Shown here: positions 13,601 through 27,832 of the stretch, one piece after another | Position numbering within the stretch: the first letter of the stretch is position 1 | How the letters are laid out: the number at the start of each line of letters is the position of its first letter | From: a virus | Direction: 5' to 3' (one strand) | DNA: 27,832 bases | IMG/VR virus record: IMGVR_UViG_3300008218_001423 | Location: 1-27,832 of that record | Translations under genes and position numbers: made by a program | The notes under the pieces: generated by a model | What the model was told of the DNA's origin: nothing | Databases searched by the model: none | The model's input: only the letters and a program-made list of their open reading frames with translations

Positions 13601-16600
13601 TAGCCGAGATAGGAACCTTTATTCAGGAAAGCTTAGCTCCCCATATAGAATCTAAAATTGAGAATTCTCAAGAAGGAAAAGCTTTGGCTGAGTTAAAAGC
13701 AGAAGAAGAGAAAGCATGGAATGCTTATAATGTTGCTCTAGCTAAGAATTGGCAAGTAGAAACTAAGCATAATAGATCCTTATTTATTACAATGGAAAAA
13801 CTTAGACAAGTTGTTAAACAGAGAAAGACTATTAAGACTGGTCTTAATCAGCGAGCAGAAATCTTTAATGGTTTAGTAAAGACAGCTACAGAACAAGGAA
13901 GGTCAACCTTGAAGTTCAATGAGATAAGAGGATTAATTCCAAAAACTTCTACGTACTGGTCAAGAGTATTAAGAAAATCTGTACATCCAGATAATATAGA
14001 ACTTTACAAAGAAAAAGAATATACTATAACTGAAGCTAGAACGATATTTGAAGAAGCTAGCGAGGAAGTTAGAAAATATGCAAACAAACTTCAAATAGGA
14101 ATGAGTAGACACATGATGTCTCTTGATAGCTTCTCCTCCTTAGATGCAGCCTTTGCTCATGATGTAGATGAAGACTATATCTTTGATGTTGAACAGACTA
14201 TAGATGAGTATTTAGATGAAACAGATATTGGTCTATCAGATGCTGAACAAGCAACGCGAGACTTGTATGTTGAAGCAGGAGAGTTAGAAGACTTTTATGC
14301 ACAGTTAAAACTATTTAAATCACGGTATAAAAATAATATTCCAGCAGGTTTAGTCAATGCTGTAATGCCTGTTTACTTTGATAAAGTAGGAGGTAAGGCT
14401 GGCATCGGACTATTCAGTTTCTTCAAGAAACACATTATATGGGAGGGAAACCTACACGAAGATATGACTCCTGGAGAATTATGGTTAGCTATGGATAGAA
14501 TTAAGTTTGACTTAAAAGGTGTTATCCAAACCACTAAAATTGCTATGCTTAGAACACATGTAGGTCTAGGTAAGTGGTCAGAAGCTCTTGCTAGAAAAGG
14601 CATGGATGATATTGTAACTGATCTAACAGATGAAGGTGGTAAGGACAGTATCTATAACTTAATCAATAGTACCAGAGTTATAACTAGACTTGAACAAGCA
14701 CAGAAGGTACTTAATACCAGACTATTTCAAGACTTTGGATTTGTACTTGCAAGAGACGAAGATGGCTTTCCTACAAGACTTGTTAAAAAGGGGGAAGAAA
14801 ATAGAGTTACAGAATCACAGTGGTTAGGCAAAGTAAGAGAAGCTATGGAAAAAAGAATAGCTCTTATTATAGAAGACCAAGGGGTAGAGAAAACTATAAG
14901 AAATATACAAGAGATATATCCTACCTTCTTAACTACCGAATCTGAATACAAAGGACTTGATAAAACTACCTATGTTATAAAAACAATCTATAATGAACAT
15001 GAAAGCGAAAGTAATGACTTTTCTCCTGACGAAGAGTTTCATATATCCGATATGGGTAACGGTAAACGTGATTGGCAATCTGCAGATGAAGTAGGCAAAG
15101 CTTTAGTAGATATGATTACTGGAAAAGAATTAGTTACTAAGTCTCCACTATACATGATGGATCCTGATGAAGCACTTAAAAGAGATATTGATGAGTATGA
15201 AGCTAACCAACATCCCTCTCTTCAAGTTACTCTTCCAATGGATAATCAATCTAATAGAGCTGCTCCTATAAGTCCAAGAGATCTATTTAGAAATTATCAA
15301 AACTATAAATGGAGAAAAAGAGTTCAAGCTGTAGTGGATGAGAAGTTAACTCCCGCCAAAAGAAGAAAGCTATATGCTTGGATTGAGAAGAAGAGTAAGG
15401 TTCTGTTCCCTGATAAGGTTGGAGAAGATTTACATATGGCTATATTACCTACAGTAGTAGGAACTGCTCTCCATGAAAGAGTTATAGGATGGGAGGAATT
15501 AAAGCAATTCTATAGAGAAACTATGCTCGAAATGCCAATGATTGGTATAGGACATATCCATGACGAGATGACAGCAGCTAAAACTGATAGGGTAGACTTT
15601 GCTGCAGAGTATAGAATTAACCATCCTGGTGTTTCTGCCGGCTCTTCACTTATAGTTCCCTTTGGAAAGATCGGTGAGATTATGGCTTTGGAATCTTCAT
15701 GGAGTGGATTCAAGGGTTTAACAAAAGCATCTATTATTCATGCAGCTAGAATTGTAGCTCAGCATATAGAGTCTGGTAAACCTATAGGAGATCTCTATGC
15801 TCCAGAACATTATAAAGATAGAAGCTTTAGTGGTCTTATGGAAATTAAACTTCTAGCTATGGCAGGCATTGGTGAAGGAATCAGTCTAGATGTCGATGGC
15901 GTTACTCATAATATAGATGAAGTTATAGACGGATTAATTAAAGGAACTATTGCTGACCAGTATGGCGGTGTAGAACTAGACTTCTATCGTGCTTCAGGAT
16001 CTTTTATCGCTGCTCAGATTGATGCTACATATAGACAGGGATTAGATGCAAAAGATACAGCTGGAGGTCTTCTCTCAAAATTTAACAATGTCTTCAGAAT
16101 ACTGAGAAGAGAAAATAGTAACGAGTTTATGACAATGGAAGAATGGGGAGCAGAAGTTGATAGGCTAAATGAGTTAGGTGATGAAGAGAGCTTGAAGAAA
16201 GTAGCTCAATTCAAAGCTGTTAGAGAGTTCTTTAAAGTGCCTGTTATGCGTAGACTATATCAAGGTGGCATGAATTCCTTTATGACTGAGTTTAGACCTA
16301 GTGATTTTAGGGATTTTAAAGGACAAGTAAGTGCTCCAAAAGGAGTCCAAGCTCTGCTTGAATTAGAAGATCAATTTGGGGTTAATTTTTCTGAGGCTGA
16401 AGTTGTAGCTATTGGTGAACAAATGTTTAAGGAAATAGTTAACCATCATTCTATCATGTTTACTCAAGATCTAATGAATACAGCTATACCTATGGTTAAA
16501 GAAGGCATTACTTTAGATGCTGCTATGGGTATGATGAAAGGTACTAAAAGTGCTGCAATAAACTTATTGAGAATGGATATCAGAGGAACATCGGCTGTAG

Positions 16601-19600
16601 AAACAATGGTTCGCAATTGGGTTGACAAGGTTCGTATCTGGTCTAATGGAGAAAAGACTGGACTCTCTGAATCACATCCTCTATATAAAGTAAGTACAAT
16701 TAAAGATTCTTGGGAATCTGTTATGGATGATATGACTGATAAAGTCTATGGTCGAGCTGAGGGTAACGAGAAGGCTTGGGAGAAAAACAGAAAAGCAGTA
16801 GCTAAAATGTATGAGCCTCGACTAAAGAAAGCAAGAAAATATCTAGATGATCTTCCAGATGGATTTCAGCTAATTCCAGGATCTAAAGAGTGGAAAGAAT
16901 TAGAGATGATCATGTATGGCAATGTTGATGGCGAAGCTGGAGAAGGTCCAAGAAAATTATACAAAAGTCTGGGATACTTTAAAGGCCTGAATATAAAGAA
17001 TAGAACAGCCCATAAACTAAACATTGAACGTATGAAAAGAATCTCAGAATATATGGGTATTCAAGACTTTGATTCTAGAGATTTCTTAGGTCTTGGTAAC
17101 TTCTTATTGTACCATACAGCCCTGCCAACAGTAGGAAGCTATCGAGTTACTGATCGAGCTGCTGGACATGGTATGAATACACAAGGAGCTTTCTGGGAAC
17201 GCATTGCTAAGAATCCTGATATGATTGATCCTGAAGTAGCAACCAAAGATTCTATCTTTCATATAGAAGCTAAGAAGCTAAGAAAAACTGTAGACGAATT
17301 AACCCTAGAAGAAAAGCAACTTATTCTTGCAGAGTATATGGAACAGAACTCTGATAACCTTGATGCCTTAGGTATGTCGGATATAGTAAATAATCCATAC
17401 TTTGGAAATGATGCATCAGGAAAACCTAAGTATACTAAAGAACAATTTGATCAATTAATCGAAGACTTGATGCTAAAGAATATGTTAATTCAATATTCTT
17501 CTTATGATAAACCGCCTCTTACTGATTATACTGCTGAGGATGTCGAAGGACAATTGGAACAAGAATGGTTAAAGGATATGTATCTTCACACTAGGCGTAG
17601 AGAAAAGACTCTGAAGAGTGAAATGGCACAAGAAGAAGATTGGCTTAATAAAGGAAGCAGAGATTCTCGGTGGATGACTCTTCTTGGTCTGAAAGCTAAG
17701 ACTGGTCGAATTGTTAATCCTGGTGTAGCAAGAGCTTTAGGCGTTTCTCTTAGTACCTTTACTAAGATGGAGTATCCTAAAACTACAGTACATGAGGGCA
17801 AGAAAGCTTTAAGTAAACATACAGGAAATCTTTTGGGTCCTCTATCAATGCAGCCTAAATATAAGCAGGTTTCATTCCATGACAAGGGTATGTTCTTCTT
17901 ACAAAAACTGGAAATGCAACGACAGCAAAAAGAAATTCTTGGTCCACATATGTTAGCTGAAGAGATGACTTTTGAAAATAATGAAGATGCATTTATTCCT
18001 AGACATCACTTTGGATATACACAACCTTGGAAACGAGAATCACTTCCTAAGCCATTACCTATTGCAACATCTTATCTTCAAAACATAAGAATGGATAATG
18101 AAGCAGGTATAAAAGCTGGACAACTGATGGGTCAATTATTTAGGTGGGCAGATTCTAGAGGATATCTAGAGACTATAGAAAAGGATCCCACAACTCTACC
18201 TTACTTTGTTAACATTATGAACTCAGAGAATATCAGAAGAAAGAATATTAGAAGACTGAACCGATCTCTAACTCCTGAGGCAGCGGAAGCAGAAATAATT
18301 TCAGAAAGAATTAATTACTTACTTGAACTACATAACTTGACTTATCTCTCTAGAGATATTAAGAGAGCTGTAGTCAAAGGACAGGTATGGTCTCCTAAAG
18401 GTAGGCCTCTATCTACTGTCGAAGGTTTAAGAACTATAGAGAAAAGATTATTAGCAAACGACAAAACTTTGATCATGGAAGATCTACTTACAAATCCTTT
18501 ATCTGAAACTAATCCTACAGGATATATTCTAGATCCTACTCTTATTCACGAACAACTAGAATATGGTTTAGTAGCTAGAGAAGGTATGACTTTAACTGGA
18601 GAAAATATTACCGACAATCCAGATGTCTTTGTGATGACTGATCTTCATCTAGTATCTGCTCCAATTCAATCGCATGACTTTAATAGATTTATGTTAGCTA
18701 TGCTCTATGATAACTATATTCAAGAAATTATTTTAACAAATGATGACTTTACTCATCTAAGAGAATTTGCTGGTAATCCTAATGCTTGGGATGTTGAGAT
18801 ATCTGTAGAAGAGCAACAGCAATTAGTTGATCTAGCTTTCTTGAAAGCAGAGATGGAACATGGTGGACTAAATATTGAATTCTTAATTCCTCAAGAAATG
18901 ATTAAAACTATTTCCTCAAAAGATGATGTACAGCAAATTAATATTATGCTAGATCAAGTTAGAGTTATCCGAAGAAACGATGGTGTTGAAGTAGACGTAA
19001 CCCAAGGTCTACGACATTCATTTAGTAATGTAGGTTTTGGTTTCCAGACTGTTGCACCTAGAGCTGTTATAGGACAGAACGTAAAGCTTGCTCTAACATT
19101 TGATGCAGCTATAGGAATGATGGCTCTACTAGAGAATCAAAAAGATCTAGCAACTATTAATCTAGGTATGCAGTCTAATAAGAACATTAATACTAAAATG
19201 AGCGATGCTTCTAAGTCAAAATGGGTTAGAGCTAAATTACCTTCTGATTATGCTGAAGAAGCATTGGGTCGTACAGAAGAAGCTAGAACTAGAGAAACTG
19301 TTCTTTCATCAGAAGCTATGGAAATGATAGCTAGAGCTATAGATCCAAATGCTGCACTACCTACTGTAACCAATGTTCATAATAAGATTGACGGAGTTCC
19401 TATTGAAGTCGTTGATCTCGATGCTTACAGATCTTCTCCCGTAGAAGGTATGAGCCATGTTGTAACTGAAATGTATATCGCTCCTATCCAAAATGTACTA
19501 AATAGAATCAGAAGAAATAATGTTAGCCATATAGCAGAAGATGGTCTTGCTAAGATAGAAAAGTTAATAGTAGATGTAAGAAGAGAACCCCATCATGATG

Positions 19601-22600
19601 CAAGACGGACTGAACTGATCTTATTAAGTGCTATGGTAGATATAGGAGATAGTGTCTTAACAAAAGAAATGATAGAAGTTGTTCTTAATAAAAAAGCTTT
19701 ACCTGCTAAACAGGCTGCTACGATTATTAAGAATGCCCATGATACAGCTTCATCTTTATACAGATCAATAGTTAATGTAGCACATGATAAACATGCTTAT
19801 TACAAGAATCCACTTAGCGATATGGCTAGAGAATTTTTATGGTCGTATCAAATTAGTCAAGAATCAACTATACAAAATAGTAGAGAAGCCTTTGTTAATA
19901 AAATTATGGAAGAGATAAGAACAGGAGAAGAGGGAGTATCTATTGATGAACAGACTCTTGATCTTAGTGCTTTGGTAGATTCTTATGGAAATTTTGAATC
20001 GCCCAAAGGAGAAACTTATAAAGTAAACGAAGATACAATTAAGTTCTTAGCTAATCAAGCTTATGATTTTGCTTTAGTAGAACAAGCCTCAGACTACAAT
20101 CAACCACAAAGAGAATGGTTTGGAGATATTCAAACCTATACTAATGATGTTGTTAGAGTTAGTAGGACTTCAGAAAACTTAAGATCCTATGCTCTTGAAC
20201 AAGGTGGTAAGGATGGCAATCCAGATCTTGAACGACTGGGGTCTCAAATAGATAATCTCACTGTCTCTAAAGAAAAGCCTGACAATTTCTTAGATGCTAA
20301 AGGTGCTAGAATATTAAGAGCTGTAATTCTTAGAATGTATACTTATGATCCAATGAGTCTTCACTTATTAAACTTTGATGAAGGTACGCTGACGCAAGGA
20401 GTTAATCAACATCTAACCTTAAGAGGTGAGTCAAAACGGATTGGAGACAGAGTTGAGATAACAGTAGACAAGGAATTAAAGGGTCAGCATCATAAAGCTC
20501 TAACTGTCCTAGTTCATGAGTTAGCACATGCTGCTACATTTAAATATCTAGCTCTTGGTTCTCCTGAGTATAATACTTGGCTTAGACTTCATAACAGTAA
20601 GAAGGGTAGAATTTACTTAGAGAAGATGGTTATCGCTTGGGAGGGTGGTATCCGAACAGCTAGAACAGATAAACTGGTTGAGTACTATATGTCTGAGCCT
20701 AAAGAATTTGTAGCTGCTATGGTACAGTTTCACTTACTTAATGAAGTAGCTGAAATACCAATGGACATGGAATGGACAGATGGAGATAATACAGTACATC
20801 AAGCATCTATGGGATTATTAAAAAAGGTTATGCACTATGCTCAAGAATTCTTTTTAAGAATAAGTTCTGTATTTACAAACTTTAAAAAAGAAGATCCTGA
20901 TCTGTACAGTCGCTATAAAGAATTAACTGAACGAGCGTTAGGATGGGATGCTAAGGCTGGTGAGACTATAGCACAAACAACAGAACCTGCTTGGACTAAA
21001 GCTAATTTTGTCGAATCAAAGAATGAACAACCAATCTTTCAACAGCAAGAAGGAACTGTCTCAGATAGTGAATATCAAGCATTAATAAATAGAAGAAATG
21101 AGCTAGATAATCAAAGACAGGCTTTAGATAAAGAAGGTAAGTTGGATGAGTTTGCTGATGCAAATGAACTTTTTGATCTAGAAGCAGATCTAGAAGCCCA
21201 TGGTGGAGAGGCTAGTCTAATTGGAGAGACTACACGGCTAACATATTTTGAGACTATTGCTCGATTAAAGCAGAGGTTTGCTCCTGAAAAAGGTGGTAAT
21301 CAGATTCTAGATCTTAAGCGTATGCTCCAATCAGAAGGAGTGGGTATAACTGAGCAAACAGTGGTCATGGAGTATATTGTAAGACGGTTAAGAGATGTCT
21401 TTGGCGATCCTATGACAGCCAATGCTGCTGTTGCAGGACGAAGAAGTTTGGAGTGGTTATCAAAGTTAGTCGGTAAAGATAAAGGATATGCTCAACAAAT
21501 GCTTACAGATGTTATGGTGGGTCAAACAGGTGCTACTAAAACTTGGAGTGGTCTAACAATATTCCAACAATTATTCTCTGCCTTACTAGATGATAGAGTT
21601 GTAATGACTATGAATGGTATTAGCCGATTTAAAGGTATGCCCAGTGTATCTAGACATCTTAACGAATTAGATTTAGTTGGCGAACAAATGAGATCTTTCA
21701 ATTTAGATCTTGAAGAAATTAGTAATAAGCAAGACGATACTATTGCTATGCAAACAGAACTAATTCACTTAGTAGATAATCCAGATCACACAATATCTTT
21801 ACCAGACAGGTTTACTCCTCAACAAGTTGCAGATGCTACTGAGATTATTGAACATGCTTCTGGATCTATGAGCAGATTCCTACGAGACTTAATTAAGAGA
21901 GGCAATGATATTGGTATTTTTTCTGGTGGATTTGAAACTCTAGTCCCTTATAGATTTAACGATGTCTTTACTGGAAATACAGAAGTAAAAGAAACATTCC
22001 AAGATCTAATGAAACGAATGATATTTGATAGGCTAACTAGTAGTATGATTGATCCTAAAGGAAAGGTAGATGGAGCTACTCTATATACCTCTAAGCAGAT
22101 ACCGTCAGTTTCCTCACCCGAAGCAATGGTTAAAGATATTAAACGATTAGTCAAGACTCCACATACTAGAAACTTTATCTATCATCTAATGTCTGATATC
22201 TTAGGACCAGATGGACTAGATAAGTTAGGAACAGCTACTGAACCTGGGCAAATTAATGAACAGATTAAAGCACAGATAGATGTTCTTGGCGAAGGTGTAG
22301 AAGGTGAAAAACTAGTTAGTGATGTTGCTAATATTCGTGCAATGTTAATGGACAGAATACAATCCTTTATTGGCGATGCTGCCAGTGGTAAAATATCTTG
22401 GACTCAGCTAGGTGTTATGTCTAAGAGTCCTGCTTCTAAGTGGCATTCAGATTATGAAGCTGCAATTACTGCTAATACTGATCCTATGAAACTAGCAGAC
22501 CAATCTATTATTACAAGAATTAATGAACTGTCAATTGAAGGTAGTCAACATTTATCTCATGTCTATCATCGAGTAGATCCAGATTCTCAAGGGCCTCCCC

Positions 22601-24870
22601 TATCAGGACATGCTGGTGGAATTAGATCTGTAGTTGATCTTCACTACTTCAATCTTGAAAGTAAAGCTTCTAGAGGTTTGTACTTCCCTAATGATGCTTG
22701 GGCTGTTCCCCGTTTTTCTGATCTTGCAGACCATCCTAAGTCTAAAGAATTAACCTCAGCTTTGATGACTAACCCTCACTTCTTGGTAACTCAATTTAAG
22801 AAATCTAAAGGTGATTCGATTATTGAAATTAAAATGATGAGAGAAGCTTTTGGGGTACATGGAGATTATGGTGATGTATTATCTCTGGCTAGGACAGTTG
22901 TTGCTCAAGCAGTTTCTATTAAACATCCTAATGGAGAAGCTATTTCAGATCATGAAAGACAGGATTTGAAAGATGGTATAAATCAGCTTGAAGGTAAGTG
23001 GGGCTTTGTTCGTGGTATTACTACTTCAGCTAAAGCTACAGACAGGTTCTCTCAATGGTTAATGGATGTAGCTCCTTCTATAACTAAGATTGCTTATGGG
23101 GGTAACTTAGCCCTAGCTAGTGGTATGGTAGAAGGAACCTTTAGTGCTATGATCGAATTGTTTGGTCGTCAAAGTATTACAGGATTTGCGAGAACATTTA
23201 TATCTCCATTATTACCACTTAATAAAACAGTTAGAAAGAAAGTAGCTAGAGATCTACTCCATCAAATTGAAGCTGTTACTCAGGGATATGTACCTGATTT
23301 CCAAAGACCTTCACAGGCAGCTCAAGATTCAGCTCTAACACGGCTTATAAAACTAGGTGGTAGAGGAATGATGTGGCCTGCAAAACAAACGATTCAAGGT
23401 ATTGCAATATCTAGAGCTATTACTTTAAGACTAGCAATTACTGATATGTGGAAATCTGGAAAGCTAGAAAAGTTAGTATATAAACTACAAGGAGCAGATA
23501 TTAAAACAGATCGAGATCTATTAAAGGCAATGAGATCTAAAGATGTTGGTATTTCTAGAAAAGAACTAAATGTAGTTAAGCTAATGATTGAAGCTGGTTT
23601 ATTCCTAGATGCTGAAGGTGGAGGATCTTGGAATGCTTTTAATGATATCTTTAATAAGTTTGGCGTTGCAGATGAATCATACTATGGGATTGGTGATTTG
23701 CTGAATAAATTTAATACTACAAAATCTTCTAGTGATGGAGACTATCGAAGTGCTCTAGAGGTTATGACAAAATTAAGAGGTGTTGAGAAAGCCTTCATTG
23801 AACAGGTACTAATTTCGCCTAATGCCTTTGATATCTATACAGGTGCTAACAAGGGTGGACAAGGTGTGATGGATACTATTTGGGAAATCTTTAGACGCTA
23901 CCCAGTTCTATTTACATCTCAAAAGTTTATTAGGGCTGGTGGTCAAATGAATCCTGCTATGTGGGGACTACAGCTCATGTCCTTAATAATACTAGATATA
24001 CTTTATATGATGATGCTTCGTATAGCTGCTGGAGAAGAACCCAATGAGATCCTGGATGATTTTGATAAGAATCCTAAATCTTTTATAGCAACCTATGGAT
24101 TCCGTATACCTATCATGGGTAGATGGGTGCCTATTCTAGGACAGATCGTAAAATCAGTAATAACTGATAAGCCTAATAGACAAGAGTCTATGATTCCGCT
24201 ATCAGCTTTTGGAGGTATTATACAGAATATTAAAGATGTTCTAGGTTCAGCCTTTACAGATCAAGAGATGACTGGAGAAGAATGGATGAAAGCTCTAAGG
24301 AATGTTCCAGGTATTGGAGATACTCTAGTTAGACTAGCCTACAACTTAGGTAAATCTTCTTTAGACTCTGAAAATAAAACTAAAGGTATGTCCCATAGAA
24401 CAAAGATGGAAGGCTTTAAGAACAACGGAGGAAACTTTGGTATGACTGAAGGCTTGAGACAGGCTACTCCTGAGTGGTGGATAGGTGAGCTAATCAAGGA
24501 ACTATTTGGTGGTATTCAACCATCAGTGATGGATACAAATATGTATAAGCAGTTAGTAGAAGGATCTCCTAGGCCAACCACAGAACCTACTCAAGCTCCT
24601 CCAGAGCCTGTAGGACCAAAGCCAGTAGAGCCTACATCTCCTGTAAATACTTCAGATGGAATCCTAAGGAAAATAGCTGCTCAGGAAGGCGTATCTGGAG
24701 ACTTAGCTCTTAGGCTTAGAGGAAGGCCAGATCGTCCAGGAGAAGGAGCCCATCGGTATATACCCCCAAAAAATCAGAGAGGCATTATAGAGAAGGGTGA
24801 AAGGGTTGAGGGAGAGTCTGAAGATTACTACCGACAGCATGGATACACAAGAAGCCAGAGAGAGCGATAG
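10672..24870 (+). CDS. Giant 4732-aa virion protein, probable ejected multi-domain protein
   Basis: One uninterrupted frame of 4732 codons (roughly 520 kDa), with AAGGAA before the ATG and a 14-base overlap with the preceding gene. It sits in the T7 gp16 position, last in the ejection block. Visible parts in order: a hydrophobic Ala/Gly segment at 260-288; a long coiled-coil region at about 626-890 and again near 1030-1090; a polymerase-like region (D1770; R1851-x3-K1855-x7-Y1863 within KVPVMRRLYQGG); a zinc peptidase signature HELAH at 3282-3286 with downstream EPKEF at 3342-3346; helical C-terminal blocks resembling the ends of phage polyvalent/ejection proteins; a strongly hydrophobic segment at 4430-4455; a Pro-rich linker at about 4620-4660; and a basic tail. 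I infer packaging in the capsid and ejection with the DNA. Giant virion proteins with enzymatic domains are known (N4 virion RNA polymerase, about 3500 aa); this one is longer. Confidence 0.9.
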   Translation: MPRTDLWELNPMSMTVGAPELQNVLDEERKRQWDSVKNMEVTGLDINEYGRAQHFFDPDTNEWMFGQMDAESALFESMSASYTAGIFARNAASQVSDAQNLSRGRDKDAFVGTMMEFDEDAEFLITDFLNTSKVNIAAAFQGGKAIPFVEQWYDAPDELLIKEAPLGWSVAEAIALLADRSPESYEKYRQVLGGEEGIQEVVKDANNPYMFWWKLNTAVQNRAFASSMEYLEKNTGFWERNYLKGKNFVVAGILNDPDMVVSLGIGAALNVVTAGSVGSALIAARIGQKFHSLSKWEKSVNRITKLSSVVHGSRAAVMWLPENIGPHLMNKYVFKNVQHKGIGRFLANRTADAGEGLFTGGLAEYFNQSRQIKYGKREEFSASEIWTEAYWEAIFSPVINPTMGLAMRIPGDIGGVVMGNIPQTMARSAVGTRTYDLIQKSFVSKQMAGEANIELKRLGKMRQQFATATGQDFHNTNMDEYHAFNSAVALLQLNEQQTDATTFEERIEQVLNNVVDGLDGPMSDIEIADKMISDYEATYGFSTKEPGGIYEMRALLRMRLQLDKSRKLYNADNRKNLGLEEYIDHVEQTGDYLQVFDPVTQQAIQDWWKKQKVNKDKQWADTSTDDKVQAAVDMQLELAEAVQALEEQYRVDKEGAQEQLRSSIDTVRESLGQPTRDQISTAKMAANTEKKRSSLQEEVKNLDEEVKSAAEFIGPPTQEALDAQARRDEASKDLDTFNAQNPPPGVDPNFVGPITVDQSEMEANRDGDVSLDPEIESMTDKQEAESKLSGLIKQENELQAKIREAQDQQDRITEEDLVKEMAKVTALKRDLTESLDTFIKQERDAIERRGGDPSIIADLDVVLALRRRLEKAEEVLREANKDLYKLRFAIIPVALHELQLAINENSDLFADKGEVNSSGLTAEGRKNIQELIDNIPDIGPKIDYGIYRPRGRQSTRIKNLLSNFLNKPGAKLNLKDLAEIGTFIQESLAPHIESKIENSQEGKALAELKAEEEKAWNAYNVALAKNWQVETKHNRSLFITMEKLRQVVKQRKTIKTGLNQRAEIFNGLVKTATEQGRSTLKFNEIRGLIPKTSTYWSRVLRKSVHPDNIELYKEKEYTITEARTIFEEASEEVRKYANKLQIGMSRHMMSLDSFSSLDAAFAHDVDEDYIFDVEQTIDEYLDETDIGLSDAEQATRDLYVEAGELEDFYAQLKLFKSRYKNNIPAGLVNAVMPVYFDKVGGKAGIGLFSFFKKHIIWEGNLHEDMTPGELWLAMDRIKFDLKGVIQTTKIAMLRTHVGLGKWSEALARKGMDDIVTDLTDEGGKDSIYNLINSTRVITRLEQAQKVLNTRLFQDFGFVLARDEDGFPTRLVKKGEENRVTESQWLGKVREAMEKRIALIIEDQGVEKTIRNIQEIYPTFLTTESEYKGLDKTTYVIKTIYNEHESESNDFSPDEEFHISDMGNGKRDWQSADEVGKALVDMITGKELVTKSPLYMMDPDEALKRDIDEYEANQHPSLQVTLPMDNQSNRAAPISPRDLFRNYQNYKWRKRVQAVVDEKLTPAKRRKLYAWIEKKSKVLFPDKVGEDLHMAILPTVVGTALHERVIGWEELKQFYRETMLEMPMIGIGHIHDEMTAAKTDRVDFAAEYRINHPGVSAGSSLIVPFGKIGEIMALESSWSGFKGLTKASIIHAARIVAQHIESGKPIGDLYAPEHYKDRSFSGLMEIKLLAMAGIGEGISLDVDGVTHNIDEVIDGLIKGTIADQYGGVELDFYRASGSFIAAQIDATYRQGLDAKDTAGGLLSKFNNVFRILRRENSNEFMTMEEWGAEVDRLNELGDEESLKKVAQFKAVREFFKVPVMRRLYQGGMNSFMTEFRPSDFRDFKGQVSAPKGVQALLELEDQFGVNFSEAEVVAIGEQMFKEIVNHHSIMFTQDLMNTAIPMVKEGITLDAAMGMMKGTKSAAINLLRMDIRGTSAVETMVRNWVDKVRIWSNGEKTGLSESHPLYKVSTIKDSWESVMDDMTDKVYGRAEGNEKAWEKNRKAVAKMYEPRLKKARKYLDDLPDGFQLIPGSKEWKELEMIMYGNVDGEAGEGPRKLYKSLGYFKGLNIKNRTAHKLNIERMKRISEYMGIQDFDSRDFLGLGNFLLYHTALPTVGSYRVTDRAAGHGMNTQGAFWERIAKNPDMIDPEVATKDSIFHIEAKKLRKTVDELTLEEKQLILAEYMEQNSDNLDALGMSDIVNNPYFGNDASGKPKYTKEQFDQLIEDLMLKNMLIQYSSYDKPPLTDYTAEDVEGQLEQEWLKDMYLHTRRREKTLKSEMAQEEDWLNKGSRDSRWMTLLGLKAKTGRIVNPGVARALGVSLSTFTKMEYPKTTVHEGKKALSKHTGNLLGPLSMQPKYKQVSFHDKGMFFLQKLEMQRQQKEILGPHMLAEEMTFENNEDAFIPRHHFGYTQPWKRESLPKPLPIATSYLQNIRMDNEAGIKAGQLMGQLFRWADSRGYLETIEKDPTTLPYFVNIMNSENIRRKNIRRLNRSLTPEAAEAEIISERINYLLELHNLTYLSRDIKRAVVKGQVWSPKGRPLSTVEGLRTIEKRLLANDKTLIMEDLLTNPLSETNPTGYILDPTLIHEQLEYGLVAREGMTLTGENITDNPDVFVMTDLHLVSAPIQSHDFNRFMLAMLYDNYIQEIILTNDDFTHLREFAGNPNAWDVEISVEEQQQLVDLAFLKAEMEHGGLNIEFLIPQEMIKTISSKDDVQQINIMLDQVRVIRRNDGVEVDVTQGLRHSFSNVGFGFQTVAPRAVIGQNVKLALTFDAAIGMMALLENQKDLATINLGMQSNKNINTKMSDASKSKWVRAKLPSDYAEEALGRTEEARTRETVLSSEAMEMIARAIDPNAALPTVTNVHNKIDGVPIEVVDLDAYRSSPVEGMSHVVTEMYIAPIQNVLNRIRRNNVSHIAEDGLAKIEKLIVDVRREPHHDARRTELILLSAMVDIGDSVLTKEMIEVVLNKKALPAKQAATIIKNAHDTASSLYRSIVNVAHDKHAYYKNPLSDMAREFLWSYQISQESTIQNSREAFVNKIMEEIRTGEEGVSIDEQTLDLSALVDSYGNFESPKGETYKVNEDTIKFLANQAYDFALVEQASDYNQPQREWFGDIQTYTNDVVRVSRTSENLRSYALEQGGKDGNPDLERLGSQIDNLTVSKEKPDNFLDAKGARILRAVILRMYTYDPMSLHLLNFDEGTLTQGVNQHLTLRGESKRIGDRVEITVDKELKGQHHKALTVLVHELAHAATFKYLALGSPEYNTWLRLHNSKKGRIYLEKMVIAWEGGIRTARTDKLVEYYMSEPKEFVAAMVQFHLLNEVAEIPMDMEWTDGDNTVHQASMGLLKKVMHYAQEFFLRISSVFTNFKKEDPDLYSRYKELTERALGWDAKAGETIAQTTEPAWTKANFVESKNEQPIFQQQEGTVSDSEYQALINRRNELDNQRQALDKEGKLDEFADANELFDLEADLEAHGGEASLIGETTRLTYFETIARLKQRFAPEKGGNQILDLKRMLQSEGVGITEQTVVMEYIVRRLRDVFGDPMTANAAVAGRRSLEWLSKLVGKDKGYAQQMLTDVMVGQTGATKTWSGLTIFQQLFSALLDDRVVMTMNGISRFKGMPSVSRHLNELDLVGEQMRSFNLDLEEISNKQDDTIAMQTELIHLVDNPDHTISLPDRFTPQQVADATEIIEHASGSMSRFLRDLIKRGNDIGIFSGGFETLVPYRFNDVFTGNTEVKETFQDLMKRMIFDRLTSSMIDPKGKVDGATLYTSKQIPSVSSPEAMVKDIKRLVKTPHTRNFIYHLMSDILGPDGLDKLGTATEPGQINEQIKAQIDVLGEGVEGEKLVSDVANIRAMLMDRIQSFIGDAASGKISWTQLGVMSKSPASKWHSDYEAAITANTDPMKLADQSIITRINELSIEGSQHLSHVYHRVDPDSQGPPLSGHAGGIRSVVDLHYFNLESKASRGLYFPNDAWAVPRFSDLADHPKSKELTSALMTNPHFLVTQFKKSKGDSIIEIKMMREAFGVHGDYGDVLSLARTVVAQAVSIKHPNGEAISDHERQDLKDGINQLEGKWGFVRGITTSAKATDRFSQWLMDVAPSITKIAYGGNLALASGMVEGTFSAMIELFGRQSITGFARTFISPLLPLNKTVRKKVARDLLHQIEAVTQGYVPDFQRPSQAAQDSALTRLIKLGGRGMMWPAKQTIQGIAISRAITLRLAITDMWKSGKLEKLVYKLQGADIKTDRDLLKAMRSKDVGISRKELNVVKLMIEAGLFLDAEGGGSWNAFNDIFNKFGVADESYYGIGDLLNKFNTTKSSSDGDYRSALEVMTKLRGVEKAFIEQVLISPNAFDIYTGANKGGQGVMDTIWEIFRRYPVLFTSQKFIRAGGQMNPAMWGLQLMSLIILDILYMMMLRIAAGEEPNEILDDFDKNPKSFIATYGFRIPIMGRWVPILGQIVKSVITDKPNRQESMIPLSAFGGIIQNIKDVLGSAFTDQEMTGEEWMKALRNVPGIGDTLVRLAYNLGKSSLDSENKTKGMSHRTKMEGFKNNGGNFGMTEGLRQATPEWWIGELIKELFGGIQPSVMDTNMYKQLVEGSPRPTTEPTQAPPEPVGPKPVEPTSPVNTSDGILRKIAAQEGVSGDLALRLRGRPDRPGEGAHRYIPPKNQRGIIEKGERVEGESEDYYRQHGYTRSQRER
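15775..17115 (+). other. RNA polymerase-like region inside the giant protein
   Basis: Residues 1702-2148. T7 RNA polymerase has GKPIG upstream of motif A, the catalytic D537 in motif A, and R627-x3-K631-x7-Y639 with VM three residues after the Lys in motif B. Here GKPIG occurs at 1702-1706, an Asp followed by RASGS at D1770, and R1851-x3-K1855-x7-Y1863 with VM at 1858-1859. The D-to-K spacing is 85, against 94 in T7. A PDGF at 2062-2065 resembles the T7 TPDGF segment. Motif C is not securely placed: candidates are D2137 (DSRDF) and D2691 (LTNDDF, preceded by SAPIQSHDF, compare T7 PNFVHSQD). No DxxGR/TxxGR was found. This is a divergent or decayed polymerase, or a coincidence. Confidence 0.38.
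20500..20715 (+). other. Zinc metallopeptidase (zincin) signature inside the giant protein
   Basis: Residues 3277-3348. HELAHAAT (H3282, E3283, H3286) follows a hydrophobic strand (ALTVLV), the classic HExxH zinc helix. About 56 residues on, SEPKEFVAAM provides a Glu (E3342 or E3345) where many phage polyvalent-protein zincins have an EF or EFxA third-ligand helix. The motif is complete, so peptidase activity is plausible, either self-processing of the giant or cleavage of a host or virion protein. Substrate unknown. Confidence 0.65.
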
Positions 24871-24963: not shown

Positions 24964-24988
24964 CAAAGGAGAAATCCTTTGTTTTTTT
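24964..24988 (+). terminator. Intrinsic terminator of the late operon
   Basis: A perfect 7-bp stem CAAAGGA/TCCTTTG (24964-24970 and 24975-24981) closes a GAAA tetraloop and is followed at once by seven T residues (24982-24988). It lies 94 bases after the giant gene's stop and should end late transcription. Confidence 0.85.
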
Positions 24989-25006
24989 CCCCATAAGAAT
25001 CGACTT

Positions 25007-25035
25007 AGGGGGTCACGAATTTATACAGGGGGTCA
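25007..25035 (+). repeat. Two direct copies of AGGGGGTCA, 20 bases apart
   Basis: Identical 9-mers at 25007-25015 and 25027-25035, exactly 20 bases start to start (two helical turns), between two terminators. The spacing suits a protein-binding site pair or part of a phage promoter or terminus. No function can be assigned. Confidence 0.6.
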
Positions 25036-25068
25036 TAGTATAGTTTTCTTGTAGCAACCCCCCCCTAC

Positions 25069-25089
25069 CCCTCTTGTCGAGGGCTTTTT
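25069..25089 (+). terminator. Probable second terminator before the small-gene module
   Basis: CCCTC (25069-25073), a 5-base loop, GAGGG (25079-25083), then CTTTTT (25084-25089). The stem is short but GC-rich. It could back up the first terminator, or attenuate a transcript entering the 25111 gene. Confidence 0.5.
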
Positions 25090-25110
25090 GAATCATGAAA
25101 GGATTTAGTT

Positions 25111-25248
25111 ATGCCACATACAGAATCAAAGGAATCTAAGAGACTTCGTCTGTTGGCCGAGGAGAGAATAGAAGAGGAACGTCAGGTAGATGAGGCATCA
25201 TGCTCGTTGCATGAGATGTCTGAACAGTTGGAACCCGATGATGCTTAG
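25111..25248 (+). CDS. Very small charged protein, first of the small-gene module
   Basis: A 45-aa reading frame (MPHTESKESKRLRLLAEE at the start, EPDDA at the end) with AAAGGA at 25098-25103, seven bases before the ATG. It is rich in Glu, Lys and Arg and probably a single amphipathic helix with an acidic end; no membrane segment. The ribosome site, position at the head of a row of small genes with similar sites, and start directly after the terminator region support it as a gene. Small charged proteins at the start of T7-like genomes often inhibit host functions; that is only a guess here. Confidence 0.6.
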   Translation: MPHTESKESKRLRLLAEERIEEERQVDEASCSLHEMSEQLEPDDA

Positions 25249-25253
25249 CATCA
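25239..25253 (+). promoter_or_regulatory. Perfect hairpin TGATGC-TTA-GCATCA before a gene start
   Basis: A 6-bp perfect stem with a 3-base loop overlaps the stop of the 25111 gene and ends 12 bases before the ATG at 25266, immediately before the AGGAG. It shares the core GC-TTA-GC with the hairpin at 27005 and GC-(A/T)TA-GC with that at 25501. Stem length, loop size and GC closing pairs resemble N4 virion RNA polymerase promoters; an mRNA leader stem-loop is the alternative. Confidence 0.5.
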
Positions 25254-25265
25254 GGAGACTTTGTT

Positions 25266-25472
25266 ATGTTTGAGTATATTTTTGTTAGTGTGTTAGTTAT
25301 CGTTGCTCTTGCTATCGTCGGATGGTTCGAGCGTAACATCCTTCGGGGTGAGTGGCTCAAGGATGAGCCAGAGGAGGAAACACAGTTGTATCACGACTCT
25401 GTGTATATCTCAAAGGAAGAAGAGGAGGAACAGCAGAGAGCCTACAACTCTGTGTTTGAAGAGGAAGAATGA
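25266..25472 (+). CDS. Small single-span membrane protein with acidic tail
   Basis: A 68-aa protein with AGGAG at 25253-25257 and ATG at 25266. Residues 3-21 (IFVSVLVIVALAIVGW core) form one clear transmembrane helix, probably an uncleaved anchor since no signal-peptidase site is evident. The remainder is soluble and very acidic, with an EEEEE run at about 51-55 and an EEEE end. Charge placement (FERN and R after the helix) suggests the tail stays in the cytoplasm. The gene lies between two GC-(T/A)TA-GC hairpins. It could act on the host membrane or on DNA-binding proteins through its acidic tail; nothing specific is recognisable. Holin is possible but unsupported by a lysis neighbour. Confidence 0.72.
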   Translation: MFEYIFVSVLVIVALAIVGWFERNILRGEWLKDEPEEETQLYHDSVYISKEEEEEQQRAYNSVFEEEE

Positions 25473-25491
25473 TGGTATGTCCATCAACCTG
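25467..25491 (+). repeat. 25-bp hairpin repeat, copy 1
   Basis: Identical over 25 bases to 25808-25832. The copy contains TGATGG-TATGT-CCATCA (stem 25470-25475 and 25481-25486, 5-base loop). It overlaps the stop codon of the 25266 gene through ATGATGG, which also opens a mini-frame beginning MMVCPST. Exact conservation in two intergenic sites suggests a control or processing element. Confidence 0.8.
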
Positions 25492-25500
25492 GCGAGGTTA

Positions 25501-25513
25501 AACGCATAGCGTT
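25501..25513 (+). promoter_or_regulatory. Perfect hairpin AACGC-ATA-GCGTT before a gene start
   Basis: A 5-bp perfect stem with a 3-base loop ends 14 bases before the ATG at 25528, just upstream of AAAGGAG. Its core GC-ATA-GC matches the other two triloop hairpins except for the first loop base, while the outer pairs differ with complementarity kept. Confidence 0.5.
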
Positions 25514-25527
25514 AGAAAGGAGTTGTA

Positions 25528-25806
25528 ATGGTTCACCCATTGCTTTTCTTATCGTGTGTGTTGCTTGCGTACTACGCAATCTTCCTCACTTATCGTCACA
25601 TTATGAACGATGATCGTCATATTAGTACGATCATGTCAGTAATGTGGATGATTCTGTTGGTCTTGCTGTACTGTGTGCTCACTTGGCAAGGCGTTGAGGT
25701 TAAAGGACATTACTTTGACAACAGTAATCATGAACACCTTGAGGTGTTCCCTGATCATGAGCACTATCCAGATGGGTATGATTTCCCTGATGGTTGCGGT
25801 AGCTAA
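25528..25806 (+). CDS. Small two-span membrane protein with His/Asp-rich tail
   Basis: A 92-aa protein with AAAGGAG at 25517-25522 and ATG at 25528. Two hydrophobic helices are visible, at about residues 3-21 (LLFLSCVLLAYYAIFL core) and 34-53 (STIMSVMWMILLVLLYCVLT core), separated by a short charged loop (RHIMNDDRH). The tail from residue 58 is rich in His, Asp, Glu, Tyr and Pro (HEHLEVFPDHEHYPDGYDF) and could bind metal ions. Two membrane helices plus a charged tail fit small phage holins or host-membrane inhibitors, but there is no endolysin gene nearby in the window. Both arginine codons are CGT, unlike the AGA-rich late genes. Unrecognised otherwise. Confidence 0.72.
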   Translation: MVHPLLFLSCVLLAYYAIFLTYRHIMNDDRHISTIMSVMWMILLVLLYCVLTWQGVEVKGHYFDNSNHEHLEVFPDHEHYPDGYDFPDGCGS

Positions 25807-25807
25807 T

Positions 25808-25832
25808 GAATGATGGTATGTCCATCAACCTG
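25808..25832 (+). repeat. 25-bp hairpin repeat, copy 2
   Basis: Exact second copy of 25467-25491, again directly after a gene's stop codon (TAA at 25804-25806). Stem arms at 25811-25816 and 25822-25827. The mini-frame MMVCPST is again opened and here would run into the start of the 25859 gene. AATGATGG alone recurs a third time after the 25859 gene (26379-26386), without the second stem arm. Confidence 0.8.
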
Positions 25833-25858
25833 TAGCCTAGGACAAGGCAGGAGATATT

Positions 25859-26380
25859 ATGTCTTCACCAGTTAGCGTTCACGTAGTAGAACGCGATGGT
25901 GCACATCATTATCGTTTCCGATGGAACACTTCAGACCTTTCTGGTTCTGGTTTAGCCGTAGGCTATACTGACGAAGATGGGATTGACCACTATAATGTTG
26001 GTCTCGATTCCGATAGCTCACTTATCGAGCTAACGAAAGTCACTGAGCAATGGATGAGACTTCATGGAGTGGAACGTCCATGTTTTGCAGATTATACTGT
26101 TATACGGTATACTTGCGAAGAATGGTTTGGTAGTGTTCAACTGCTTCCGCCTGCTGTTACTGGCGAACCAAAAGCTGAATGGTGCAAGTGTGCCACTAAG
26201 CTAGCGGATCAATGGACTTCAGTATATGCGGATCTCAGTCTGTTAGAATCTTATAAAGATAATCCACGTCTCTATGGAAAATACTTTAAAGATGCTCTAG
26301 CACGTCAACTACTAGCTAGCCTATACCAAGAGCTGGAAGATGATGACGACGATAGCAGTAACATCGGTCGACGGTCTTAA
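25859..26380 (+). CDS. Unknown soluble protein with acidic tail
   Basis: A 173-aa protein with GGCAGGAG at 25847-25854, five bases before the ATG. The first 70 residues look beta-rich (VSVHVVERDGAHHYRFRW), followed by helices and WCKCAT at about residues 108-113, where two Cys could bind metal or form a bridge. The end is a run of acidic residues (ELEDDDDDSS) and then IGRRS. No family is recognised. Nine of ten arginine codons are CGN, a contrast with the late operon. Its upstream spacer carries copy 2 of the 25-bp hairpin. An early host-interaction role is possible from position; DNA mimicry by the acidic tail is speculation. Confidence 0.8.
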   Translation: MSSPVSVHVVERDGAHHYRFRWNTSDLSGSGLAVGYTDEDGIDHYNVGLDSDSSLIELTKVTEQWMRLHGVERPCFADYTVIRYTCEEWFGSVQLLPPAVTGEPKAEWCKCATKLADQWTSVYADLSLLESYKDNPRLYGKYFKDALARQLLASLYQELEDDDDDSSNIGRRS

Positions 26381-26602
26381 TGATGGCACCACTAATGAGC
26401 AAAGGCTCCCGCCCCTGCCCTCGCACGGCAGGGGCCTCATACAGATACATTCGGTTAGCTGAGTGTATCTGTATGAGGTACAGGATATATCTCAAGAGAA
26501 GAAAAGTAAACGGTGAGGGTCATGGATGACTGACTGCCCTTACCGTGTGTAGTAACGACCGTAACTGTAATGCCCGTTTAGAAATTTTAGAAAGGAAAAG
26601 CT
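26381..26602 (+). ncRNA. Highly structured 222-base non-coding region
   Basis: Several inverted repeats follow one another. GAGC/GCTC with a 4-base loop at 26397-26408. GCCCCTGCC/GGCAGGGGC (26411-26419, 26427-26435), a perfect 9-bp GC-rich stem. CCTCATACAGATACA (26435-26449) pairs with 26464-26478 as 15 perfect pairs, extended by five more including two G-T pairs to a TTAG loop. ACGGTGAGGG (26510-26519) pairs with CCCTTACCGT (26537-26546) with one G-T pair. No T-run follows the stems, so these are not ordinary intrinsic terminators. The 20-bp stem is long enough for RNase III, which processes T7 early mRNAs. It may be a small RNA or mRNA-processing region; no known RNA family is recognised. 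Confidence 0.5.
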
Positions 26603-26950
26603 ATGAGACCCTTAATTTTTGTACCCAGTGAAGAAAGAATCCAACAAGAAGTTCAAAGAAATAGAGAGCGTACTATGAATGTACGAACCGAACGAATCTT
26701 TTGTTTTAGTAGATCAACTGATAGAGAGGCAGCTATGCATTGTCGCAATGGCAACAGCCCAATGCCAGCTAAATTCTCTATAAGCGGTCCAAGAATCGCT
26801 GATACTTCAACACACTTAACATCTACTACACTAACACTAGGAACTGGAATTGGTTCAAACAATTCTGTTAGTATTGATGATATGCCTTACTCAGTAGATA
26901 CTATTGAACGAGATGCAATAGACATTGCAAATTGTTTTCTAGTATCTTAA
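26603..26950 (+). CDS. Unknown 115-aa protein
   Basis: A 115-aa protein with AAAGGA at 26591-26596 and ATG at 26603. The N-terminal 40 residues are basic and helical (EERIQQEVQRNRER), followed by a Ser/Thr/Gly-rich middle (STHLTSTTLTLGTGIGSNNS) that looks beta-strand or low-complexity, and an acidic C-terminal helix (DTIERDAIDIANC). Two Cys lie at about residues 34 and 47. No signal peptide, membrane span or known domain. Arginine codons mix AGA, CGA and CGT, intermediate between late genes and its neighbours. The long structured leader upstream hints at post-transcriptional control. Function unknown. Confidence 0.75.
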   Translation: MRPLIFVPSEERIQQEVQRNRERTMNVRTERIFCFSRSTDREAAMHCRNGNSPMPAKFSISGPRIADTSTHLTSTTLTLGTGIGSNNSVSIDDMPYSVDTIERDAIDIANCFLVS

Positions 26951-27004
26951 TAATTTGATAACTCCATAACCTACTGGGAGTCTAAAGTATTAGTAGACTA
27001 TTAT

Positions 27005-27019
27005 TCTAGCTTAGCTAGA
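27005..27019 (+). promoter_or_regulatory. Perfect hairpin TCTAGC-TTA-GCTAGA before a gene start
   Basis: A 6-bp perfect stem with a TTA loop ends 14 bases before the ATG at 27034, directly followed by GAAAGGA. The loop and closing GC pairs are identical to those of the hairpin at 25239; the outer stem bases differ but stay paired. Confidence 0.5.
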
Positions 27020-27033
27020 GAAAGGACTTAGTA

Positions 27034-27832
27034 ATGAACAACGTAAGTGTTAACCCCACGATGCGACAATTCATTCAGGAGTCTATTGAGGATCAAGTGC
27101 CAATGCTGCAAACGCAGATGTTAAGGCTAATGAACCTCAATAAGCAGGGACCATGGGTTGACCCTAAGAAATCATCCCGACAGAAGTCTTCACCAGCGGT
27201 GCAGGCATTTATGGACAAGATGGCTGGCGAGTTTTACTCGATGACCATCGAACAAGGTATTGTAGGTACAGACGATGCAGCTCGTGAAGCAGCGATGGAA
27301 CTTGTACAACAAGGTTTAGGTACAATGTCATATGCAATCCGTCAAGAAGTGGCGGGTGATGTCGTCCTAGAAGACAGACAGTATGTTCCTGGAGATGAAT
27401 GGGTGAATGTGCTTGATTGCAACTATCCCGTAGAATCACCAAGACATACTCAGTTAAAGCGATCAGATCAAGTTGATGCTGGTGAAGTCTATCATATCTC
27501 TCAAACGCATATTGATGCATGTAGTGTTCTCAGCAATACCCTTAGTTGGTTTGATGAGGAACAGTTTCTTATCTGTATGGGCGTGAAGGTTAAACTTGAC
27601 CCTGAAGAACAGAACGATTACATGGGATCAAAATCTGTTGGTAGCTTTAAGAAGTATTTCAGAATGGCCAGTGGTCAAGATCGCCCAGAGATCTATATCA
27701 AGCAGCCTCTTACTAATTTAGATTATCGTTTTCGGAAGTATGCTATCATGCTTCTGTCTATTACAGGCAACAAACGAATTCGATCAATACACAATGCTCC
27801 ATCCTATGCCTTTACAGAGAGGTGTCGAGATC
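27034..27832 (+). CDS. Possible T7-type RNA polymerase, N-terminal part, cut by window edge
   Basis: Open from ATG 27034 (GAAAGGA at 27020-27026) to the window end, 266 codons without a stop. Residues 168-179 (NTLSWFDEEQFL) recall T7 RNA polymerase NTAWKINKKVL. From that Asn to the terminal CRD here is 98 residues; in T7 it is 96 residues to the Asp of the DWRGR motif, with IWFPYNMD there against SYAFTERCRD here. If the next codons read xRGR the call is confirmed. The region before the NT element is about 150 residues shorter than in T7. An RNA polymerase here would fit gene 1 of T7-like phages, following small early genes. Overall similarity is weak and no catalytic residue is in the visible part; it could be an unrelated protein. 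Confidence 0.4.
   Translation, partial: MNNVSVNPTMRQFIQESIEDQVPMLQTQMLRLMNLNKQGPWVDPKKSSRQKSSPAVQAFMDKMAGEFYSMTIEQGIVGTDDAAREAAMELVQQGLGTMSYAIRQEVAGDVVLEDRQYVPGDEWVNVLDCNYPVESPRHTQLKRSDQVDAGEVYHISQTHIDACSVLSNTLSWFDEEQFLICMGVKVKLDPEEQNDYMGSKSVGSFKKYFRMASGQDRPEIYIKQPLTNLDYRFRKYAIMLLSITGNKRIRSIHNAPSYAFTERCRD

Follow-up and report, generated by a model that had tools for sequence, protein, structure and literature searches.

The DNA examined here (the window) is the complete viral record IMGVR_UViG_3300008218_001423, 27,832 bases long, from an uncultured T7-like marine phage. It encodes a T7-like terminase (Pfam 1.4e-31; PHROG 3.9e-93) and two large open reading frames (ORFs) of 1631 and 4732 amino acids (aa), the second of which, at positions 10672–24870, is referred to as the giant ORF. 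A run of small genes (25111–26950) follows it, and the record ends within a further ORF that starts at 27034. Three perfect hairpins, located by an exact repeat scan, precede genes of this region, each with its 3′ arm at a Shine–Dalgarno sequence; the hairpins, the Shine–Dalgarno sequences and the genes are all on the plus strand. Hairpin 1 (TGATGC-TTA-GCATCA, 25239–25253) is flush with AGGAG (25253–25257) and leads to a 68-aa ORF (25266–25472). Hairpin 2 (AACGC-ATA-GCGTT, 25501–25513) is followed by a single A and GAAAGG (25515–25520), ahead of a 92-aa ORF (25528–25806), and hairpin 3 (TCTAGC-TTA-GCTAGA, 27005–27019) is flush with GAAAGG (27020–27025), ahead of the ORF of at least 266 aa (27034–27832) that is cut by the contig end. 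Hairpins 2 and 3 and their Shine–Dalgarno sequences were also recovered in the flush-hairpin survey described below. The coordinates reported in an earlier note on this DNA are exact, with 12, 14 and 14 bases separating the hairpins from the ATGs at 25266, 25528 and 27034. As a qualification, a 45-aa ORF (25111–25248) ends within hairpin 1, where its TAG stop codon lies; the 34-nucleotide leader with this hairpin folds as RNA with −6.8 kcal/mol.

Here and below, 'early' denotes the region after the giant ORF and 'late' the part before it, as assigned from gene order only. The core GC[A/T]TAGC occurs 11 times on the two strands of the window, and only at the three hairpins is it enclosed by a perfect stem of at least 5 bp, against 0.035 such stems expected per window from dinucleotide-preserving shuffles; one more copy, within the giant ORF on the minus strand, has a stem of 4 bp. 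Perfect triloop hairpins of at least 5 bp stand 8–20 bases before the ATG in 3 of the 6 early leaders (probability of three or more, approximately 1.6e-4) and in none of the 9 late leaders. A test for intrinsic terminators or attenuators found no U run after the stems, which are followed by GGAGA or GAAAGG, and flagged none of the three as terminator-like. Rfam returned no match above gathering score in the window. A hammerhead core built on hairpin 2 as stem III (CTGGCGAGGTTAAACG...GCGTTA) was judged by eye and rejected: CUGANGA is unmatched, stem I is missing and Rfam gives no match.

The terminase identifies 116 relatives among viral contigs, many of them 58–67 kb long. Whole relatives share the order terminase, large ORF, giant ORF (3,200–5,700 aa) and small genes, and most have a gene of approximately 600 aa. 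In about 20 related phages, with the same terminase and the same giant ORF, the same small-gene region contains the same module: a perfect hairpin of 5–7 bp, 0–2 bases, a GAAAGG Shine–Dalgarno sequence and a start codon. Taken across the group, the module is a short perfect hairpin, mostly GC-clamped, whose base touches the Shine–Dalgarno sequence (usually A-GAAAGG), with the start codon 5–9 bases on. It recurs throughout the group, is limited by gene order to the early and middle region, and is tied to GAAAGG and a start codon.

These statements rest on two surveys, in which gene starts were set by rule, without annotation. The first counted perfect hairpins of at least 5 bp with loops of 3–5 bases that end 0–2 bases before the Shine–Dalgarno sequence, with the expectation taken from shuffled leaders; near-duplicate contigs were excluded, and G022–G025, which form one clade, count as related. 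Within the first 4 kb after the giant ORF, a flush hairpin is present at 18 of 41 GAAAGG starts, against 0.32 expected, and at 4 of 84 starts with other Shine–Dalgarno types (0.77 expected), among them hairpin 1 of the window and the hairpin of G001. Elsewhere in the genomes the figures are 7 of 43 for GAAAGG starts (0.62 expected), all of them farther downstream than the early region, and 10 of 594 for the other types (7.2 expected), which is no excess. Wherever hairpin and GAAAGG are combined outside coding sequence, a start codon follows at Shine–Dalgarno distance; in G022 and G023 this spacing is slightly longer than the pattern limit. In T7, N4 and S-TIP37, none of the GAAAGG starts, of which there are only 1–3 per phage, has a flush hairpin. 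Triloop hairpins of at least 5 bp are common, occurring about 1.4 times per kb anywhere, which is what a reading as chance inverted repeats has in its favour; the counts in relatives and the probability within the window alone reduce that reading to a negligible one, and at the level of the group it is already refuted.

The second survey, which was not seeded on GAAAGG, found 21 flush hairpins in early genes (3.55 expected), 17 in the following 20 kb (7.4 expected) and 5 in late structural genes (6.3 expected, no excess). A second layout, in which the Shine–Dalgarno sequence lies inside the hairpin loop, is represented 11 times in early genes (4.1 expected), 15 times in the following 20 kb (7.85 expected) and 4 times in late genes (6.65 expected). 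The window has a possible case of it on the plus strand at 25090–25106, before the ORF at 25111: (G)AATC-ATGAAAG-GATT(T), a weak hairpin whose 4-bp stem is below the survey threshold, although the layout class itself is over-represented in the early genes of relatives.

The arms of the hairpins are free to change provided that pairing holds. Ten triloop cases, from the window, G001, G007, L161, L171 and L186, align without gaps, with 50 of 50 cells paired and double substitutions at 5 of 5 pairs; the covariation score is 1.02, against 0.19 (s.d. 0.08) for shuffled alignments and at most 0.16 with the partners slid. These cases are mostly different genes, picked for having a hairpin, so the alignment speaks for many unrelated arms that all pair, rather than for a single hairpin passed on by descent. 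At the start of the ~600-aa, polymerase-like early gene, where the window has ORF 27034, flush hairpins are present in G007, L161, L171, L186, L187 and, by eye, L170, with arms that mostly differ: TCTAGC in the window, GTCCC in G007, TGTCCC in L161 and L187, TGCCTC in L171 and TCTTGGC in L186. The close relatives G022, G023 and G025 keep the stem CCGGC/GCCGG around a loop of TAT, AAT or ATT, and G024 has TCCGGT-AAAT-ACCGGA, a paired change relative to its clade. Loops vary even within one genome (TTA, TCGTC and TTA in L161; CAAGT, AAT, AAT and ACCCC in L186), and their length across relatives ranges from 3 to 7 bases. Selection on the hairpin, as the earlier note had proposed, is thus borne out by the covarying arms and by equivalent sites of relatives that hold unrelated yet perfect hairpins. 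Among the outcomes that the note had named as speaking against its proposal, absence from such sites and equal frequency in late coding sequence are not observed. Its constant inner core holds for the window phage and a few relatives (G001, L161) and fails across the group as a whole.

Two roles had been put forward for the hairpins, as promoters of a virion RNA polymerase, as in phage N4, or as mRNA leader structures. In the first, DNA hairpins extruded on the template strand would be recognized by an RNA polymerase of the virion or by an early one of the phage, and GAAAGG would be an initiation region that doubles as Shine–Dalgarno sequence. The promoters of the N4 record, located as a yardstick (GTTGC-TTC-GCAAC, AAGAAGC-TCC-GCTTCTT and AAGCTGC-TCC-GCAGCTT), bear out the N4 core given in the note for the template strand, where it is GC-GAA-GC and GC-GGA-GC. 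Several features are shared with these promoters, P1–P3: they are hairpins of 5–7 bp with a 3-base loop, a C-G closing pair and a variable outer stem, and they belong to the early region of a podovirus in which a giant virion protein is encoded as well. In promoters of the N4 type, transcription starts approximately 11 bases 3′ of the loop centre. The hairpins described here have stems of 5–7 bp; most have triloops, and most have a C-G closing pair next to a G, as in the N4 coding-strand cores GC-TTC-GC and GC-TCC-GC. They lie only in the region that follows the giant ORF, and relatives encode two single-subunit RNA polymerases. Close spacing to a gene also has a precedent in T7, whose phi1.5, phi1.6, phi4.3 and phi4.7 promoters lie 11–13 bases before ATGs.

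The differences concern the bases that the polymerase reads and the placing of the hairpin. N4 vRNAP contacts the loop bases −10G and −11G (PMC4496689), and the loops TTC and TCC of N4 are GAA and GGA on the template strand; the template-strand loops of the window are TAA, TAT and TAA, and lack these bases. Whereas the window hairpins share the N4 combination of a 5–7-bp stem and a 3-base loop, relatives also have loops of 4–7 bases. The N4 promoters stand at widely different distances from genes, none of them abutting a Shine–Dalgarno sequence, and the other T7 promoters lie approximately 40–85 bases from gene starts, whereas the hairpins here are joined to the Shine–Dalgarno sequence and every intergenic case has Shine–Dalgarno spacing; a promoter family would be expected to include members farther from genes, as in T7 and N4. 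GAAAGG also serves as Shine–Dalgarno sequence in the layout that places it in the loop, which a promoter does not fit. In sequence comparisons the giant protein shows no detectable match to N4 vRNAP (hhalign probability 0.3 per cent) or to any polymerase family. An RNA role is favoured because the N4 loop contacts are not kept, the start-codon spacing is found in every intergenic case and no polymerase match was detected for the giant protein. As judged from sequence, promoters for a virion polymerase are therefore a poor fit and an unlikely explanation, and the mRNA-leader proposal is the better fit of the two, since the hairpin is tied to Shine–Dalgarno sequence and start codon.

The genes around the hairpins are largely without known counterparts. 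The 4732-aa giant ORF has no Pfam or PHROG match and no detectable similarity to any RNA polymerase family; it contains a metalloprotease-like motif, HELAHAATF. The early genes of the window have no DNA match among known phages, and the 19-base repeat core has none in viral contigs. The 68-aa ORF at 25266 has a distant relative in IMGVR_UViG_3300008050_000078 (45% over residues 1–33), and ORF 27034 has no close relatives among viral contigs or known phages. Besides a T7-like RNA polymerase of approximately 820 aa, relatives encode, at the place of ORF 27034, a second, divergent and fast-evolving single-subunit polymerase of 570–710 aa (G017 62577–64703, G001 59628–61475, G007 29793–31565 and others). 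For one member the match is to PF00940 (4.7e-30), and a profile of eight members finds both mitochondrial RNA polymerase (5.5e-11) and PDB chain 6dt7_B (RNAP2, 404 aa; 3.3e-4), the latter of which we take, from its length and name, to be the N4 RNAPII subunit. ORF 27034 is a candidate early RNA polymerase by synteny only: hhalign detects no sequence similarity between it and the ~600-aa polymerase of relatives, and a reading of its DYRFRKYA as a polymerase motif is unproven. In G017, a repeated CTATAACCGGGTATAATAGTATAT at four intergenic sites (2291, 14686, 34888 and 57930) is a candidate promoter of the T7-like polymerase of that phage.

The main rival is a regulatory or RNase-protection role, in which hairpin and GAAAGG form a translational operator for a protein of phage or host, or a guard against an RNase that cuts Shine–Dalgarno sequences, so that early genes would be switched together. 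The link to a single Shine–Dalgarno sequence and to early genes is in keeping with such a role, and T4 offers precedents for both versions: RegB cuts GGAG in early ribosome sites, a cut against which RNA secondary structure gives protection, and the operator bound by gp43 has a hairpin upstream of a ribosome site (PMC3014915). The gene 43 operator of T4 and RB69 resembles the module as an mRNA hairpin upstream of the ribosome site of an early gene, but here many genes are involved, no loop is conserved and the hairpin is flush with the Shine–Dalgarno sequence. The RegB targets resemble it in that the Shine–Dalgarno sequence of early genes is the point of control and RNA structure decides its fate; the sequence there is GGAG rather than GAAAGG, and a search for RegB in 12 relatives and for RtcB in relatives found no homologue of either. 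Because a single genome can hold loops of different sequence and length, as L161 and L186 do, a protein that reads the loop is unlikely. We regard an operator or guard as possible but doubtful.

Self-cleaving ribozymes in the same region raise another possibility, that the hairpins are only stabilisers of 5′ ends, protecting new ends made when the polycistronic early RNA is cut, with no part in initiation. Type II hammerheads are present in the small-gene region of relatives (L091 19147–19217, L107 19779–19858, L142 12239–12302 and L167 2747–2817), as are pistol ribozymes (L092 2126–2192, L109 1212–1273, L113 14700–14774, L122 17673–17749, L147 13774–13850, L170 12088–12164 and L186 4341–4402), all above Rfam gathering scores, and the type II hammerhead of G001 ends approximately 8 bases before a GC-TTA-GC hairpin. 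By our reading of the type II layout, however, the G001 cleavage site lies tens of bases farther upstream, so the hairpin there is not at an RNA end. With no Rfam ribozyme above gathering score in the window, and with the contact between hairpin and Shine–Dalgarno sequence left unexplained by protection alone, stabilisation as the sole role is improbable.

The early region begins with a conserved 74-base element, present in the window as a single copy (24998–25071). Its layout is AATCGACT(A/TA)GGGG(G)TCACGAATTT, then GGGG, a variable hairpin and CCCCCC-GTA-CCCCC. In the form AATCGACTAGGGGGTCACGAATTT...GGGG...hairpin...CCCCCC-GTA-CCCCC it is found once in each relative that covers the region (G001, G002, G004–G008, G011–G013, G017, G021, L161, L167, L169–L171, L173 and L185–L187) and was not seen in the G022–G025 clade. 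A DNA pattern of the element matched no prokaryote genome contig and 14 viral contigs, the majority of which were known to belong to the group. The element may be an early promoter, a leader RNA or an antitermination signal. A CPEB3-ribozyme match at 25017–25099 was rejected as weak (16.7 bits, threshold 35) and probably reflects the GGGG/CCCC pairing of the element. Just 5′ of the element, at 24964–24988, a terminator-like hairpin with a T run (CAAAGGAGAAATCCTTTG), which is also found in G001 and G002, is probably the end of the late operon.

Other RNA features of the region were recorded alongside. An intergenic hairpin, ATGATGG-TAT(n)-CCATCA followed by AACC or similar, is repeated in the window at 25467–25491 and 25808–25832 and occurs in G002, G005 (three copies), G008 and G013, only within approximately 1.2 kb after the giant ORF; the G013 copy has the stem GTTGG/CCAAC. 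Between small genes at 26410–26480, a GC-rich hairpin precedes a long hairpin with ATACAGATACATTC...GTGT(A)TCTGTAT, a pair shared with G005, which has two copies approximately 670 and 1080 bases after the giant ORF. The manA RNA motif is present in relatives G001 and G005 (L092 3167–3361 and L098 11814–12008).

On balance, the hairpins probably belong to the ribosome-binding sites in the mRNA leaders of early genes. They would act as RNA. Since each hairpin ends exactly where the Shine–Dalgarno sequence begins, it could hold that sequence single-stranded in a set place at the base of the stem and wall it off from pairing with upstream RNA, such as the C-rich structured RNA of the early region and, in relatives, the self-cleaving ribozymes; it could also block nucleases that arrive from the 5′ side. 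Shielding and blocking together would allow each early cistron to be translated independently of its neighbours. The computed cost of opening the stretch from Shine–Dalgarno sequence to start codon is 7.33 kcal/mol for native leaders and 7.87 kcal/mol with the hairpin shuffled (p 0.015, with some sites entering in more than one register).

Several observations weigh against assigning the hairpins this role in early leaders. The mean gain in opening cost is only 0.54 kcal/mol and is reversed at several sites, which argues only weakly for insulation. The association with GAAAGG was discovered on the same data in which it was counted. Some early genes are without the module, and orthologues in G002 and G008 lack it. 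The stems contain no G-U pair, so wobble pairs do not decide between RNA and DNA; a comparison of G-U pairs with A-C mismatches yielded no informative cases, and the energies with which the hairpins fold as RNA and as DNA do not separate the two. A bolder variant, possible but doubtful, is that hairpin and GAAAGG, flush or with the Shine–Dalgarno sequence in the loop, form a code that marks the early genes of the group, and that translation is made early-specific by a dedicated factor or ribosome state able to read this code; as part of that same tentative proposal, the early RNA would also be cut by its own ribozymes and would begin with the conserved structured element.

A close general framework for the leader role is that of structured standby sites, in which a hairpin upstream of an accessible Shine–Dalgarno sequence is accommodated by the 30S subunit and short hairpins are cheap (Espah Borujeni et al., PMC3936740). 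It is a general biophysical description of bacterial 5′ leaders, and there a very short distance between hairpin and Shine–Dalgarno sequence lowers translation, whereas a distance of zero recurs here; a hairpin so placed is predicted to cost some translation unless it is short (PMC3936740), and the hairpins of the module are short. Hairpins at mRNA ribosome sites are already known, and what is new is the flush-hairpin variant in this phage group.

The timing of phage gene expression is usually credited to promoters and polymerases. A structure that recurs at early ribosome sites only, and whose pairing is kept by covariation through sequence change, suggests translation as a further level at which timing or strength is set. 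The module can be found by a structure scan, and, because the same region holds ribozymes in relatives and the strictly conserved 74-base element, the phage group is well suited to the study of early-gene control at the level of RNA.

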